This document shows positions 36 through 63,947 of a stretch of 64,000 nucleotides of DNA, in pieces (position 1 is the first letter of the stretch; every line of letters starts with the position of its first letter). The notes under the pieces were generated by a model. The model saw only the letters and a program-made list of their open reading frames with translations. It was not told where the DNA came from and made no database searches. Origin of the DNA: Tomocerus qinae (lineage: Eukaryota; Arthropoda; Collembola; Entomobryomorpha; Tomoceridae); the NCBI GenBank assembly GCA_020055645.1, contig CM034547.1, forward strand, positions 15,966,513 to 16,030,512. Reading direction: 5' to 3'. The position numbers and the translations under genes are program-made.

Positions 36-3000
36 CCCTACATTGATAGTGAGTGGTGTAACTACTCTTAAACATATTGAGCAATGACTACAGTCAACTC
101 TCAAGTCATGTGAATAAAGTATTGACGAACCCAAATCGTTTCATGGAGTTTTGAGAAAAGGAAATTCTTCTGATTACAAGAAAGGAAATATGGCAAACAA
201 ATTGACCTGGATGTAGTAATGAGTCTTCTTTAACTACGGTCTACCAGAGGAAGCTCCAAGCCTTTGATATTGATTCTGGTTAATCTAATTGACTACTTCA
301 GCTGGTCGATTAGGAAATTGAAGATCATAATTTACTAAAAGAGGGCTGAGTTGGTCTATATAACCAATTCTTTCTGAACTCTACTATTTTGAGTTTCAGA
401 TTCGGATACATCAGTGATATGAAGTTTTGAAACTTAATGCAAAGCAGAGAAATTGCGAAAGATGAGAGAACTTTCATTTTGTAAGAGAATTAATAGGTTG
501 GGACAGGGATACTGAAAGAAAATATGTCAGCATATACCCTGAAGACCTTAGCTTAGCGAACGAATTGTAAAAGGATACTTATGGTAGGATGAATTTTGGA
601 TTACTTTGGCTGATTATTATTATTCATCGAGTTTTGAGCCTAGCCTTCAACATTTGTCGTTTTGTATGCGTAGCTTAATTCTAGCCAGCGGTATACTGTA
701 AATCGGCTCAAACACTCCAATCAATCATGCAAATACGTAAGTAGAAAATATTTAATTTGTGTCTCAAAGTATATCATTGTAACAATATTACTACTCCTAT
801 TTACCGACAGAATGCTTTATAGTAGTCTGAGTCCTGAGTGGCAACTAGATAGTATTGTCACCAAATAAGTGAATCATATGTATTACATACAAATACTAAA
901 TCCTTAAAATTGATTTTTTCTAGTAATGTCACTACATTTATTACAACACTTTTGCTGTTAATATTTCAGTTTCAACCATGCACGTGTCCTGATTTATTGG
1001 TTCATTTCATTTATTGTTATGGTATGGTACAGCTGTGACCTGACTTATTTTCTACATCATAAACAAAGAACATCAGTCAACCAGATAGTCATAATAATAA
1101 GCAGCGTAAAGCTACAATTCCTTTTGTCATAGCACACAAATAAAGTGTACCAAAGAGTAAATAATTGGATTGTACTTGCTAAATTCGTTATTATGATGCT
1201 TGCACAGTAAAAATTAACGCTAAACTCTAAATACTGCTACTGGTGTGTACTAATTATGTCAATGATTTATGATTTTCTCCTCCAGCATAATAATATGCCC
1301 TTGTCAAAAAATACTGTCTCTGTGTAGAGTGGAGATAGTAGAGAAACATAAACTTTGTTTTATCTTTTCACTACAAATTTCATCCCTTTGTTTAAACGCT
1401 GCTTAAATGAATTATGTAAACCTCAGTAAGCTTGTAAGCTATTAACAAGTTGTAGTACTTGTACATAAGAGGCTTCGAAAAATATTTTGACATTTACAAT
1501 ATACTGAACCTTTATCTACTTCTATTAATCTTGGAATATACTGATTGTAAGCAATCATTAGTGCTCTAGTAGTTTTCATTGTACAGCTTTATTGATATCT
1601 GGCACAGTTACTCATTTTTAGTTTCACTCAGTAGCTATAACTATAAGCTTTTTAAATAGTCATTAATTTGATTAAAACTTTACTTTGAAATGTGTGCGTA
1701 CACGTACTATAAGTGAACAGTACGCTGTAGAATTGTTCAATGTTTTACATTTAACAAAGACAACAGTCAACTATAAAATGTTATTGACCCTCTGGACCCT
1801 AGTACTATAATCGGATTAAAATACTTAAATTGTTCTTTGTACTCTCTAATTGAATTTTATACTTTGTCAGCATTCTATTCAAAATATAGCACAAAGTCGT
1901 TGATGTTGTAGTTGTAACTAATTTTGCTTTGCCTACCTGATTTACTGATGCCATAAGCCTACGTAATGAAATCTTCACAGAGTAGCATTTTGAGTTCAGG
2001 CACAATTATACCAAGCATCAAATGATGAATGTTTTCTCTTTTCTGTTGAATAGTAAGTCTTACTTTTTGCAGCAGATGATGGGAAATAAAAGGTAATTAG
2101 GTTTACTCTGCTTCCACTTCCTCCACCATTTACATAAACGCTCTTGATGTCATTTTGTAGACAAAATTACATTCTCATACCAAAATGTAGATAGAGTACA
2201 GAGAAGCATTCATGACATGAAGTGGCCTTGAATCTTTCTCTGGGCACACTAATGTCAACGACCGTCATCTATGTAGTATGTATATTTCTCGCAGTAGCCT
2301 ACTCTGTACAGCGATTAAAATAATGATCCCATTGTATGGAGCTTAAATACTAATCTAAACAAAATTATTTCATTGTAAGTAACCTGACTAATAATTACAT
2401 AGGACACACCCACCCACACCTACCCTATGGAATTTAAAAAGTAATTGGAAAAGTACATATAGTCTACAGTAAGCTCTAAAAATTTTACTATCAATAAAAT
2501 GTCAATAGATGTTATTTTAACCTGACCCAATGTATTAATATCTCATATGTACTCTGTTCTATGCGATTAGGGCTGGATTTTCTTTTCATCTTAGGAACTA
2601 CATTACATTATATAATATGCATGTGATTTGGTTAATAACATTAATCAAATTACTATTCTGTTTGACGAATTCTTGGAATAATTTCTCAAAGGTTAATGCT
2701 TGAATGGTCAAAAGAAATTCTCTAGGGTTTCCCAAGAGTACTAGACCGTATAGAGACCTAGTTAAAGATTGGCATAAGTTCGAAAATAATTTAAACCAGA
2801 ATTGTAGACGGTCAAAAACGACTTACAATTTCCTATTTATAGGTGCATTGACTTACGCATATCTTATAAATACTGAAGTATTTTCACCTTACTTTCTAAA
2901 CTTTCCACAGTGGGTGGTATATGTTACAATTATATTCGAGTAACTAGCTTCCGTCTTAAAGTCTATTGTGTGCACTACTCATTGAAATGGCAATAAACGG

Positions 3001-3800: not shown

Positions 3801-4579
3801 CGGAATTTTCACATCTAAAGTACTTCTAGGGGAAGCAAAGTTAACCACATACTGCAGCTTTACAACTAGGTACTGCAGCATTACAACAGTGTACTGAAGT
3901 TTTACAACTAGGTACTGCAGTTTTACAACTAGGTACTGCAGTTTTACAACTAGGTACTGCAGCTTTACAACTAGGTACTGCAGCTTTACAACGGTGTACT
4001 GAAGTTTTACAACTAGGTACTGCAATTTTACAACTAGGTACTGCAGCTTTACAACTAGGTACTGCAGCTTTACACCAGTGTACTGAAGTTTTACAACTAG
4101 GTACTGCAGCTTTACAACTAGGTACTGCAGCTTTACAACTAGGTACTGCAGCTTTACAACTAGGTACTGCAGCTTTACAACAGTGTACTGAAGTTTTACA
4201 ACTAGGTACTGCAGCTTTACAACTAGGTACTGCAGCTTTACAACTAGGTACTGCAGCTTTACAACAGTGTACTGAAGTTTTACAACTAGGTACTGCAGTT
4301 TTACAACTAGGTACTGCAGCTTTACAACTAGGTACTGCAGCTTTACAACTAGGTACTGCAGCTTTACAACAGTGTACTGAAGTTTTACAACTAGGTACTG
4401 CAATTTTACAACTAGGTACTGCAGCTTTACAACTAGGTACTGCAGCTTTACAACTAGGTACTGCAGCTTTACAACTAGGTACTGCAGCATTACAACAGTG
4501 TACTGAAGTTTTACAACCATGAAACTAAACTAAACTTTTCACTATCCCTAGATGTAAAACTTAAGATGTGAAAATTCCG
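3801..4579. mobile_element. inverted-repeat-bounded element carrying a minisatellite
   Basis: A left arm at 3801-3830 (GGAATTTTCACATCTAAAG, ending TTCTAGG) is matched in reverse by a right arm at 4547-4579 (CCTAGATG, ending GTGAAAATTCCG). The arms are about 30 bp with small gaps. Nearly all the interior is a 21-bp tandem array. Further arm-like sequence at position 1 shows that the arm is dispersed in this genome. This resembles minisatellite-bearing non-autonomous DNA elements of arthropods. No clear target-site duplication is visible, so the outer borders are uncertain and a rearranged repeat is also possible. Confidence 0.5.
3848..4517. repeat. 21-bp minisatellite, about 32 units, with higher-order order
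   Basis: Units share the core GGTACTGCAGCTTTACAA preceded by CTA. A second unit type reads GTGTACTGAAGTTTTACAA. The variant units begin at 3889, 3994, 4078, 4183, 4267, 4372 and 4498. Their spacing is therefore 105, 84, 105, 84, 105 and 126 bp, that is 5, 4, 5, 4, 5 and 6 units. This implies a higher-order period of 9 units (189 bp). Because 21 is a multiple of three, a long minus-strand frame runs through the array, but this is a by-product and not a gene. Confidence 0.95.
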
Positions 4580-19143: not shown

Positions 19144-29585
<10,442 letters not shown>

Positions 29586-35881: not shown

Positions 35882-36247
35882 TTAGAAGCCGATGGTGACC
35901 TTTCTGGCGTATGTTTTGGTGTGAGCAATGTAATGGCTGGAGCTGCTTCGGATGTTTTGAAGGAGAACGGTGTCTTTATTCAAGCGCAATGATTGAGTGC
36001 GTTTGCTCCTGTCTATGTAAGATTTAAGAGCTCGTTCTTCCCACAGCATAGGTTTGGGTACATCAGGTCTTGAGCCTTTCGAACGTTGGTCCAAGTATTC
36101 AATCATAGGGCGGTAGTAGTAGGAGCCATAGTCATAGTTGTACTCGTACAGATTGCTCTTGGGCCTGGACCAGTGGCTGAACTGAGTGACAGCTCGTCGC
36201 TTGGGAGCGGAACTCGTCCCGGTTGTGTCCAATTCTGCTTCACCCAT
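35882..36247 (-). CDS. myofilin-like thick-filament protein, short paralogue (121 aa)
   Basis: One coding exon from the ATG at 36247 to the stop at 35882. An acceptor (TATTATCCAG) puts the exon start at 36264, so the 17 bases before the ATG are leader and the start is well supported. Residues 25-53 carry HW.RP, Y.YN, G..YY.P and YLD, which align without gaps to residues 9-37 of the 344-aa protein at 55973-57007. The rest is basic, with no signal peptide or membrane span. From family memory, this N-terminal pattern is like insect myofilin and the unique N-terminus of short paramyosin; I could not run a search, so the name is tentative. The expected role is a structural component of muscle thick filaments. 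Possible poly(A) signals lie near 35400-35430 on the minus strand. Confidence 0.7.
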   Translation of the reverse strand: MGEAELDTTGTSSAPKRRAVTQFSHWSRPKSNLYEYNYDYGSYYYRPMIEYLDQRSKGSRPDVPKPMLWEERALKSYIDRSKRTQSLRLNKDTVLLQNIRSSSSHYIAHTKTYARKVTIGF

Positions 36248-36264
36248 ACTTTTCTATATCAGAC

Positions 36265-55972: not shown

Positions 55973-57007
55973 TTAATCGGATTCAACAGTAGATCGTATG
56001 GTTCGTTGTGTCATGACAGTTCTCGAGGAAATGCTGGTGCTTCCAGCCATTCTTGCAGAATTGTATTCATTTCCAAAAGCTTCATCTTCTGCCGCACGTT
56101 TAGCCACAGCCTCTGATCCGATAGCTAAGTCTGGGAAAGAAGATTCCAATTTTGCAAGGCGGGCCTTTGCCCTCTGTCGAATTTGATCTGCTCTCGACAT
56201 GTTGAAATCAGCCTCCTCCATGGCTTGGTCTTCTTGGGCTTTGGCCTTTAAACGGGCTCTGAACTTTGACGCGCTATTCTCCGCTTCCCGATTCATTTCT
56301 TCGATCATATCATCAGCCCTTTGCCTAGCGGCTTTCATAGCTGCACTGTTCCTGCTGCTTTTGAAAGGATCTTCCGTGGCCAAATCGGCATCAGCAGTTT
56401 TGGCGACTGCCTGTGCCTCGATCCTATTCTTTCGGCGGGCTAAAAAGATATCCAGCGGATCTGTTGTATCGGCAACGGCAGATTTTGGTGACATAGCCTG
56501 CTCATCAACCCCCGCGGCGTTTAATAGCCGGTCACCCAATACAAATTTGAGTTTTCGATTACTGCTACTGACACTTGTACTCGTGCTTTTCAGATCTGTT
56601 GACTCTCGGAGAGAAGATTTCAGATCTGTGGATTCACGGAGAGCAGAGGACAAGGATTCTTCTGCATTCTGTCTTCTATCCAAAAGCCCTCCTAAATCAT
56701 CTAATGAGCCGTAACGATCGATCAGAGTTCTTTCTCTATTTTCCGCATTGACATTAGCAGATTCGGAACTCTCTTCTGCATTGGAACTGGCCGTTGTACG
56801 CCAATTACCGAGCCTTCCGTAAATAGGGTTTTCCACAAATCTCTCAGCAAACGTTTTAGCCGAGGGGGGTGTCTGAGCTCGTCCTGCTCGCTTAGTGTCC
56901 AAATAGTTCAACTGAGGAGTATAGTATTGCTCTCCGACTGAGAAATTGTAGTCGTAAGTCCTAGTTATGGGTCTTCTCCAGTGAGATGCACGACCGGTTC
57001 TCGACAT
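55973..57007 (-). CDS. myofilin/short-paramyosin-like muscle protein, long paralogue (344 aa)
   Basis: A single open exon from the ATG at 57007 to the stop at 55973, markedly GC-richer than the flanks. Residues 9-37 carry HW.RP, YDYN, G..YY.P and NYLD, matching residues 25-53 of the 121-aa protein about 20 kb away on the same strand. After this module comes KTFAERFVENPIYGR, then a Ser-rich segment with LRESTDLKS twice in tandem (about 125-145). An Ala/Arg/Glu/Lys-rich, helix-prone C-terminal half follows (SRADQIRQRAKARLAKLE), ending RTVMTQRTIRSTVESD. There is no signal peptide or membrane span. A structural thick-filament role is inferred from the N-terminal motif; the family name is from memory and not searched. 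A leader exon probably ends at 58479. An unusually long frame on the opposite strand (56199-56714) is a shadow of this gene. Confidence 0.8.
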   Translation of the reverse strand: MSRTGRASHWRRPITRTYDYNFSVGEQYYTPQLNYLDTKRAGRAQTPPSAKTFAERFVENPIYGRLGNWRTTASSNAEESSESANVNAENRERTLIDRYGSLDDLGGLLDRRQNAEESLSSALRESTDLKSSLRESTDLKSTSTSVSSSNRKLKFVLGDRLLNAAGVDEQAMSPKSAVADTTDPLDIFLARRKNRIEAQAVAKTADADLATEDPFKSSRNSAAMKAARQRADDMIEEMNREAENSASKFRARLKAKAQEDQAMEEADFNMSRADQIRQRAKARLAKLESSFPDLAIGSEAVAKRAAEDEAFGNEYNSARMAGSTSISSRTVMTQRTIRSTVESD

Positions 57008-58478
57008 CTTGGCTTAATAGTTCTATTTACTATGAAGATTTCTTGGTTTTCCTTTCCGTTTCAATTATTTATTGCTAACAACAGCCTCCACAGGGTTAAT
57101 GTCTATAGTACAAACAACAAAAATTATTATTGTACAGACATTATAAATCAATAGCACATACTAACACTCAGATCAAATCCTCAATTCACGCTATACACAA
57201 TTCTAATGACTCAAACTTCCTTCTATACACGTAATACATACATAAATACTGTATACATAGTTGTCGCTATAATGCTAAAATACGTATCATAAAGAACATA
57301 AATGTGTGGTGCCAGATGTACATAACGTACACTCCGTATGAATTCCCATATCACAACAGACGCAACTAATTTATAGACTACTGCACAGAACAAGCCCAAC
57401 TGCATTTATGTAGGTATTTGCAATTAAAGCATCAGCAGGATCGATTTATAATAAATGGGTCATGTTACTTGTAATTGAAAACCTGCAATTGTGAACATTA
57501 TTGTTATAGCTTTTCCGTGCTCGTTCTCATCAGAGACAAGGGATTCAATCAAAGCTTTAGAGGTTGTAGTTGCTCATAAGAAAACATTAATTAGTCCCAA
57601 TTTGTACGTTGAAGACATGGGCACGTAACACCCCTAATTACGTAAGTGTACAAGACGCAGGTTTTTAGTTGAGGTAATTGGTTTGGTGGTGAGTGAAAAA
57701 AGTGCAATGAAAGCTAAGCTATACGACTAAATAAGGCAGTGGGAGCTATTATTGGACTACAGCAAAAGGAGAAAGAACGTAAAAAATGTGAAGCAATGTA
57801 CAGCCGTGGTGTAGGGCACTAAAATTAAAGCAAATCGTATAGAACTGCAAAATAGAAGTGTATGCGTCAAGTATAGTAAGTAGGAGGGAAGGAAAGGCTG
57901 GAATCTTTAGCTACACATGCCACATAGGTATACAATATACTACTATTTTACGCTTAGGTTAAAGTATAGTAAAAGATGTGACTGTAGCGAAAAGTCTAAG
58001 ACCTCAGTCGGCAGTCTCAGCCAAAATAAAAAGCAACCCAAGGCAATAATTACATTACATATGAGAATAGCAAGGTGCCTATAATAATGGTAGAATGACT
58101 GTAGATAGGTATATAGGTATGGAATACAGAAGCAAGTAAGAATTGTTCACTTGTCTTGCTGGAATGCTATATTATGTGACAGAAATGCCTGACAATGCAG
58201 AAGGAAATACTATTGTACAGATTCTAAAGATACGTTCGTTAGATTTTAGCAATATTCTCGAGTCACCTCTAACGAAGTCAATGCTTAAATCACATCACTG
58301 AAATACATACTAGGATACTTGGATAGAGATCATCTTAGGAAGCTAAGGCAGATATGTAGGATGTAAAAAATGGGAATCTTGACGATTTCTTTTCTTAACA
58401 CATCACAGATCTGCAGAGACAGCTACTACTCCAGTCAGCATACCAATAAATGTAATATAAAAAGTGGATAGAACTAAC
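57008..58478 (-). other. probable 5' UTR intron of the long myofilin-like gene
   Basis: No coding frame of note. Candidate acceptors before the ATG are CTTCATAG at about 57024 and CTGTTGTTAG at 57075; the second has the better pyrimidine context. The donor is AAAAG/GTTAGT at 58479. Confidence 0.35.
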
Positions 58479-61624: not shown

Positions 61625-63947
61625 ATGTTCTCTTTCATTTTCATTCGATTTAGTATCTACAGTCTTTTATTATGTATTTTACAAATCAACTCCCTACCCT
61701 TGGATGAGAGTGGGGAGGAAAAATTGCCATTTGATTGTGGAATTTTTCCAGAGAAACATTTTGGAGGAGATCCTGTTGCTCTATCAGCTTCTCAAAAATT
61801 GGAATTCAATCCTGATACAAAGATTTTATTTGGAAAAGAATCGATTTCCGTTCTTTTGAATGAACATTGTGCTTTAGTACTGTGCACGACTACTAATAAT
61901 AATAAAAGTACAATTTGTACTGAAGTTACTGAAACGAAAGGTGATATTTCTGTAAACAGTGAGATCAGTAGTATTACTAGCACAGCTTGTTATTGTCCAT
62001 CAAAAGGTCAAAGTGTACAGAAGAAAACAACAGAGTTAACAAAAGATTGTGCTGTAATTTATAAGGATTGGCATTATTCAGGTAGAAAGGTACAAGTGAG
62101 ACATGTGGGAAGCACAGGAAGAACACGAAATTCATTTGGATCTGTTAAAGTCAAGCCTGGATGTTCGATTAGTTTTTGGTCTTCTCTACATCACAATATG
62201 CAATTTTCCTTTGTGCTTGAAAATTCCACCAGCTTAGTTAAAAATGTAAGTTAGATCATTTTTCAGATCACTTTCCACTTCTACCACACATGTAGTATCT
62301 TTATACATATATTTCTAATGGATGAGCTATGAGCATAAAAAAACAATCTATGTATTCAGCAGTGTCAATTTGTATTAATTGATTGTGCAGAATGAAAAAG
62401 ACACCCGGCTATGGTACTGTTGCTCTTGCGATTCCTGCTCGGAGACAGTATGTAAAAATGCTAGAGATGATATTAATAACACTGAAGATGACGACAACAA
62501 TTATGACTTTGCTCAATTTGCCGAATACAGTAAGAAGATAATAGGAGTTGGGAGAAATTACAGGTAGGTGTAGTTATATTTTAGCGTGAGCAATATCAAT
62601 TACAATAGCAGTTTACTATACATAGCTGGTAATAAGAATGTGGTACTAAGATGTACAACCATGACTGTACTGTCATTATGGTTTAATGGTAAGATTGCAA
62701 AGATGCAAAAAATTCATTTGGACAGTAATCAACTGCAATACATATAAAAACTCTTTTTCTCTCCTTGGCATTGTTTACCCGAAACAGATGGAATAAAACC
62801 GAGCTGTCTAAAGTTCTTAAGGAACCAGATGCTCCTATAATCTTCATGAAACCAACTTCGTCCTTCATCCAAGAAGGAACTTTGGTTAAAGTAAGACAAA
62901 AACTGCATAAATACAATTTTGCACGTCGACCACTAGCACAATACATGCACAGATGCATAAAATAAATTTTCGGCTAATGGTTGCTGAATAACAAATCGTT
63001 TTTTGAATATGTCCACTTTCAGAACAAATGACTATTTGATTTTGATACTATGTATGTGTTTAGCTTCCAACCAACCTTGGAGCAATTTTCTACGAGTTGG
63101 AACTAGGAGTCGTAATTGGGAAACGGGGAAAAGATATCTCCGAAGAAGACGCTTTGAAGCATGTCGCTGGATATTTTCTTTCTTTGGATATGACAGCCAA
63201 AGAGTTCCTGGTCATTATCCTTTCACACAAATTGTTATTGCTCGTAAATGATAACTGCAATTCGGGATGGTATAACTTATTTAATTGATGATCATGGCGA
63301 AGAAGAGCTTTATACTATCATACGCCTTACTATAGTTAAAACGTAATTCTTAATTCTTGGAGTTAATACTTAATCTTTTATAGCAGTAATGAATATTTAC
63401 ACCTCTTTATAATAACGAGTAAGAAACTCATCGCTTTTCTAGTCACTTTTGGGGAAATGTAAGGCTCAGGTAGTAATAATATTGGTTCGCTTGCCGGTTG
63501 ATGCTTTCTACTAGCGCATTGTGGTTGTTGGAGTGGATTATGTACCTACACAATGTATTATATTATAGTTAACGTCCTAATTAGTCCTGGGGTCTTAAAT
63601 ATTTTTTACAGAAAAAAGCTATTGCTGAAGGCAAACCTTGGGAAATTGGTAAAGGATTTGATTATGGCTGCCCAATTAGTTCATTCATCCCTAAGAAATT
63701 GGTACCTGATCCGAACAATCTTCAACTAACCTGCAGAGTGAATGGAAATCTAACTCAACATGAAAACACGGGCAATATGATTTTTAATGTCCGCCAATTA
63801 ATTGCTTACATTTCAAAATTCATGACACTTGAACCGTTTGATGTCATTTTAACTGGTACTCCAGACGGTTTCGGAGCCCTGGCTCCCGGAGACATTGTTG
63901 AAGGAGAGGTTGACGATTTAATGAAAATCCAATTTGAGGCAGTTTGA
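61625..63947 (+). CDS. FAHD1: secreted beta/gamma-crystallin-like module fused in frame to a FAHD1-type acylpyruvase
   Basis: Exons 61625-62245, 62391-62563, 62788-62890, 63064-63210 and 63612-63947; phases 0, 2, 0, 0 match at every junction, giving 459 aa. Residues 1-24 are a signal peptide. Residues 38-130 and 142-223 look like two crystallin-type Greek-key units: CGIFPEKHFGGD with FGKESISVLLNEHC, and CAVIYKDWHYSGRK with SFGSVKVKPGC. Each unit closes with a Cys cluster (ACYC; WYCCSC). After an acidic linker, residues 247-459 are a FAHD1 domain: KKIIGVGRNY, FMKPTSS, YELELGVVIGKR, LDMTA, GKGF, DVILTGTPDGFG. Metal ligands Glu310, Glu312 and Asp341 and Lys362 are kept. FAHD1 normally cleaves acylpyruvates and decarboxylates oxaloacetate in mitochondria, so a signal peptide is out of place. 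The 62563/62788 junction makes the last codon of GRNYR. Confidence 0.8.
62391..62563 (+). other. bridging exon of the crystallin-FAHD1 gene
   Basis: This exon starts after TTGATTGTGCAG and stays open for its full length. It encodes WYCCSCDSC, which ends the second crystallin-like unit, then an acidic linker (INNTEDDDNN), then FAQFAEYSKKIIGVGRNY, the first strand of FAHD1. No in-frame ATG or stop separates the two halves; the ATGs present are in other frames. It is therefore the physical evidence for the fusion. Confidence 0.8.

Follow-up and report, generated by a model that had tools for sequence, protein, structure and literature searches.

Organization of the locus

The window analyzed here is the whole stretch of 64,000 nucleotides that extends over C2:15966513–16030512 of the Tomocerus qinae genome. 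Towards its end, five exons on the forward strand (61625–63947) give, upon splicing and translation, a single open frame of 459 amino acids without any stop before its end. All four introns have GT-AG borders and join exons of matching phases (62245/62391, 62563/62788, 62890/63064, and 63210/63612), so that the exon borders and the continuous frame to position 63947 proposed in the sequence-only reading of this DNA are confirmed. The predicted protein consists, in this order, of a start resembling a signal peptide, two Cys-rich units, an acidic linker, and a FAHD1 domain. Exon 1 (61625–62245, forward strand as for all features of this gene) begins with the ATG, encodes a hydrophobic signal-like segment (residues ~1–23), the complete Cys-rich unit 1, and the greater part of unit 2, and ends on a phase 0 donor (AAT/gtaagt), as placed by splicing and translation. 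Intron 1 (62246–62390, 145 bp, GT-AG, phase 0) marks the junction between the head and the FAHD1 part. Exon 2 (62391–62563) carries in a single frame a Cys cluster, the acidic linker (ARDDINNTEDDDNNYD), and the first FAHD1 strand (FAEYSKKIIGVGRNY). The FAHD1 domain continues through exon 3 (62788–62890), exon 4 (63064–63210), and exon 5 (63612–63947), the latter ending with a TGA stop codon (63945–63947). The exon 4 donor at 63210 (CTG/gtcatt) is weak; the corresponding site of the ordinary paralogue described below reads CAA/gtaatt.

Positions 61697–62245 of exon 1 contain no in-frame stop; the two remaining forward frames have 7 and 20. Codon usage was scored on the basis of 949 training codons, each score being expressed as the number of random stop-free stretches that score equally high. 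For exon 1, 546 of 1088 stretches do so; out of 2000, the numbers are 300 for the part of exon 2 encoding the Cys cluster and the linker (where a second forward frame is open too), and 61, 62, and 642 for exons 3, 4, and 5, respectively. Little weight was given to this test in either direction because, for long exons, most of the random stop-free stretches are probably coding sequences or repeats.

Several other features were observed in the neighborhood. Two frames on the reverse strand of the window (55976–57013 and 35885–36253) contain a WYR-like motif (HW.RP...YDYN...G..YY.P...YLD). The former, of 346 amino acids, matches flightin structures with E-values of 0.00067 and 0.0081; the latter gave no match in a Pfam search, its motif being judged by eye. 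Both frames may perhaps encode flightin-like proteins or alternative N-termini of muscle thick-filament proteins. The flightin WYR domain is estimated, in PMC8301185, to date back to a common ancestor shared by crustaceans and hexapods; on this basis the match points to a pancrustacean as the probable host. The window also comprises a tandem array with a 21-bp unit (3850–4517, 31.8 copies, 90% matches), in which several frames are open, and an Inhibitor_I29 cathepsin propeptide domain (23496–23819, reverse strand, E 1.5e-15). Just downstream of the window lie pieces of PRMT5 (L012:4863–6959, forward strand; PRMT5_TIM 2e-8 and 2.9e-24, PRMT5 9.6e-45) and a small Cys-containing gene (L012:~1640–2560, reverse strand), which by eye is perhaps secreted and whose tried pieces had no Pfam match.

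The Cys-rich head

The hydropathy maximum of the whole protein (2.07) is reached by windows spanning residues 5–22, and the next-best window beyond residue 40, located in the FAHD1 part, is not far below (1.74). Residues ~1–23 look like a signal peptide. The following Cys-rich unit 1 (61724–61996) extends from LPFDCGIF to ACYC and forms an internal repeat with unit 2 (62045–62453), which is split by intron 1 and obtains its closing Cys cluster (WYCCSCDSC..C) from exon 2. The two units share 23% identity (alignment A2), a likeness whose score is reached by 8 of 1000 shuffles. Scanning the genome for further copies of the head yielded none, the 2 matches recovered from 2 candidates both being the fused gene itself.

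The head had been described as crystallin-like, and this assignment could not be confirmed. The Pfam search of the head and of each unit retrieved no family, and neither unit matched PF00030 at E<=10 with the filters of HMMER on. No solved structure matched the whole head or unit 2 at E<=10, and a profile built from the two units found a single solved structure, a non-crystallin, with an E-value of 0.83. Alignment by hhalign against 7 crystallin domains gave probabilities of 0.5% for unit 1 and 12.9% for unit 2 (P 0.0022, 21 columns). When the units were compared with crystallin-fold sequences, the score of unit 2 was reached by 4, 45, and 183 of 1000 shuffles for Protein S, Ciona, and human gamma-D, respectively, and that of unit 1 by 392, 69, and 392. 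In common with the beta/gamma-crystallins (PF00030), the head has two repeated units and a short resemblance to motif A (IFPEKHFGG, VIYKDWHYSGRK); on the other hand it has no Pfam match. By contrast L016, another gene of this genome, matches PF00030 with an E-value of 4.5e-8 when joined by eye across its intron, and of 0.0101 exon by exon. As the profile tests do not confirm a crystallin, we name the head Cys-rich, perhaps crystallin-like.

PF00030 has five matches in the genome, and the fused gene is not among them. Other beta/gamma-crystallin-like genes with a Cys pattern are L016, L019, and L020, and only the first passes the PF00030 cut-off. By eye, both L016 and L019 show a signal-like start and an intron within the first motif.

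The FAHD1 domain and its ordinary paralogue

The presence of a FAHD1 domain in the fused gene is beyond doubt: residues 256–455 match the Pfam FAA_hydrolase family with an E-value of 1.2e-56, covering positions 1–210 of the 214 of the profile, and solved structures of FAHD1 match as well (6sbi, E 7.2e-53; 6fog, E 3.8e-51). The genome (334 Mb, 115 contigs) was searched both with the Pfam family and with the FAHD1 part of the fused protein, and each search yielded 8 matches from 9 candidates, comprising one further FAHD1, on C3, and more distant FAA_hydrolase genes. A FAA_hydrolase match located on C1 (L011) has no tblastn match to FAHD1, and the locus L010 is FAHD2-like by eye.

The additional FAHD1 is the second, unfused copy whose possible existence had been raised earlier. 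It encodes an ordinary protein of 216 amino acids in four exons (L009, 5868–3829 on the minus strand), with the ATG in its first exon. Its presence rules out the fused gene as the sole FAHD1 of this genome and implies that there has been no relocation of the ordinary enzyme. Introns 2, 3, and 4 of the fused gene each have a counterpart, identical in position and phase, among the three introns of the ordinary copy. These shared introns rule out retroposition and identify the fused copy as a duplicate made at the DNA level. Identities amount to 119/216 between the ordinary and the human protein, 83/219 between the fused and the human one, and 103/215 between the two springtail copies; the column comparison and tree given below use a retrieved human FAHD1 sequence.

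Predicted junction of the two parts

The frame 62379–62567 is open, is preceded by a TAA (62376–62378), and contains the first FAHD1 strand together with the Cys cluster that closes unit 2. The final part of exon 2 aligns with the coding exon with which the ordinary FAHD1 begins, and no in-frame ATG that could serve as a separate FAHD1 start is found in exon 2, as the sequence-only reading had claimed. We infer from this gene model that head and FAHD1 domain are joined in one mRNA across exons 1 and 2.

The same region could instead hold two genes, although we consider this unlikely. One would encode a secreted Cys-rich protein terminating within or after exon 1, or by way of a retained intron 1; the other, a divergent paralogue of FAHD1, would begin in an unrecognised exon further upstream that is spliced to exon 2. 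Indeed, if intron 1 were retained, translation would terminate at 62252, and the AATAAA that exon 1 contains at 61901 is a point against the fusion. The match of phases at the exon 1–2 junction has a one-in-three probability by chance, which also counts against it, and the coding signal is weak in the Cys cluster and linker part of exon 2. However, separate genes would leave unit 2 without its closing Cys cluster, and exon 2 has no in-frame ATG and a stop just upstream, whereas the ordinary FAHD1 does have an ATG in the matching exon. Moreover, the 145 bp of intron 1 contain neither AATAAA nor ATTAAA. As for the other introns, AATAAA is absent from introns 2 and 4, and one located within intron 3 at 62961 is a further weak point of the model. 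The in-frame fusion is well supported as a gene model, and the crystallin identity of the head is unproven. The gene probably represents an unusual fusion of domains in a single lineage of animals.

Active site of the fused FAHD1 domain

The ordinary copy retains all the catalytic residues checked. In the fused copy, exon 3 encodes Asn at the position of the catalytic His30 (62792–62794), and exon 4 encodes Phe for His69 (63088–63090), Lys for Arg106 (63199–63201), and Leu for Gln109 (63208–63210). Retained are Glu33, the metal ligands Glu71, Glu73, and Asp102 (exon 4), and Lys123 and Thr192 (exon 5). His30 is conserved in all five other sequences of the alignment, which are human, mouse, E. 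coli YcgM, HpcE domain 2, and the ordinary copy. The ordinary copy shares 71 invariant columns with human, mouse, and E. coli YcgM, and the fused copy deviates in 18 of these, including H30, H69, R106, and Q109; conversely, the fused copy shares 56 invariant columns with the same three sequences, and the ordinary copy deviates in 3 of them.

Passages of PMC8398924 and PMC7116474 describe the roles of these residues in FAHD1: the His30-Glu33 dyad positions a water molecule, Gln109 acts on the conformation of the substrate, Arg106 is bonded to Glu73 and Gln109, Lys123 is the proton source, and Glu71, Glu73, and Asp102 bind the metal. K123 and Q109 are also named in an excerpt of PMC12176266. PMC8398924 itself notes that the residues essential for catalysis have yet to be worked out from the oxalate structure.

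An extracellular or lysosomal acylpyruvase, as envisaged in the sequence-only reading, appears unlikely given the replacement of His30 of the dyad by Asn and the further changes of the active site, including those of Arg106 and Gln109; a secreted FAHD1-fold pseudoenzyme fits the substitutions better. It could also be supposed that the fusion is real and that its FAHD1 part continues to act as an enzyme, catalyzing an altered reaction (for example that of a decarboxylase or a tautomerase) extracellularly or within the secretory pathway. Such an activity would be in line with the retained Glu71, Glu73, Asp102, Glu33, Lys123, and Thr192, and with HpcE domain 2, named isomerase/decarboxylase in its PDB entry, which also has Leu at the position of Gln109; because of this shared Leu, Gln109>Leu alone is not decisive and some activity may remain. 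Nevertheless, we regard a working enzyme as quite improbable, considering that Asn here replaces a His30 found in every other sequence compared and that the Q154A variant of Cg1458 lost its decarboxylase activity, which is given as abolished in a passage of PMC7116474 and as "almost abolished" (98%) in one of PMC8398924.

Asn30 opens an N-glycosylation sequon (NKT). The 459 residues contain 5 sequons overall, a number that by a rough estimate from composition is about the chance level and thus uninformative. As for a proprotein cut in the acidic linker, another suggestion made earlier, the entire protein has no R-X-K/R-R site, and the linker shows a single K/R-x-x-R, namely KNAR at residue 229, so that cleavage by furin is unsupported.

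Constraint and proposed origin

In a tree of the six sequences (fused, ordinary, human, mouse, E. coli YcgM, and HpcE domain 2), the fused and ordinary copies pair with a moderate support of 90/93, under the 95/80 mark of the tool, and their branch lengths are 0.87 and 0.18, respectively. Of the 215 codons compared between them, 154 are identical at the second position and 81 at the third; dN is 0.42 and the NG86 method yields no finite dS. The fused FAHD1 part thus looks to be under constraint, since a neutrally decaying copy would be expected to display another pattern of codon positions and substitutions. That the gene is a decaying duplicate, either a functionless pseudogene or a read-through product, is very improbable: the long branch, the altered active-site positions, and the weak exon 4 donor would suit it, but 459 codons are free of stops and frameshifts, and third codon positions are far more divergent than first and second ones.

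The reading that we favor, and hold to be fairly probable from the gene model and the sequence comparisons, is that of a captured and constrained FAHD1-fold pseudoenzyme, a duplicate fused downstream of a secreted-looking Cys-rich head, the product being probably secreted. The FAHD1 gene would have been duplicated at the DNA level, introns included, and the duplicate placed immediately downstream of an exon that encodes a Cys-rich protein of secreted appearance, the duplicate's first coding exon being drawn into the reading frame of that upstream gene. The resulting transcript would then encode the signal peptide, the two Cys-rich units, the acidic linker, and the FAHD1 fold, and the product would enter the secretory pathway and have lost its acylpyruvase activity. 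Dimerization is a trait of the FAHD1 family, and the FAHD1 part might constitute a stable folding, dimerizing, and perhaps metal- or dicarboxylate-binding platform for the presentation of Cys-rich heads. We would only tentatively go further and suppose that a secreted protein thereby turned a captured metabolic enzyme into an extracellular scaffold, in which the catalytic His of the active-site lid became the Asn of a sequon; within this same, rather speculative scheme, this would lock the enzyme in an inactive state because of its new compartment. Because the genome holds an ordinary FAHD1 with the same introns, the order of duplication, capture, and His30 loss could be resolved by means of related species.

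Comparison with known systems

A literature search on FAHD1 in combination with crystallin, fusion, pseudoenzyme, and insect returned neither this architecture nor a secreted FAHD1-fold pseudoenzyme with a Cys-rich head among the matches listed, and one on crystallin and springtails nothing on the head-FAHD1 architecture, again among the matches listed. If transcribed as modeled, the gene would represent a clear case of capture of the duplicate of a mitochondrial or cytosolic enzyme by a secretory gene, the catalytic residues being lost and the fold retained. In comparison with FAHD1, the acylpyruvase/oxaloacetate decarboxylase of the FAH superfamily, the fused copy has the entire FAA_hydrolase domain with Glu71/Glu73/Asp102, Glu33, and Lys123, but it differs by Asn30, Phe69, Lys106, and Leu109, and by the secreted-looking Cys-rich head in place of the short FAHD1 N-terminus. 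The beetle polygalacturonases and Fam20A offer examples of pseudoenzymes born by duplication, which retained the fold and lost catalysis, as the fused copy presumably did; Fam20A is, in addition, a protein of the secretory pathway, where the fused product would also be found. Those relatives are secretory from the outset. In contrast to these two systems, it is here a mitochondrial or cytosolic enzyme that would have gained a secreted-looking head by gene fusion.
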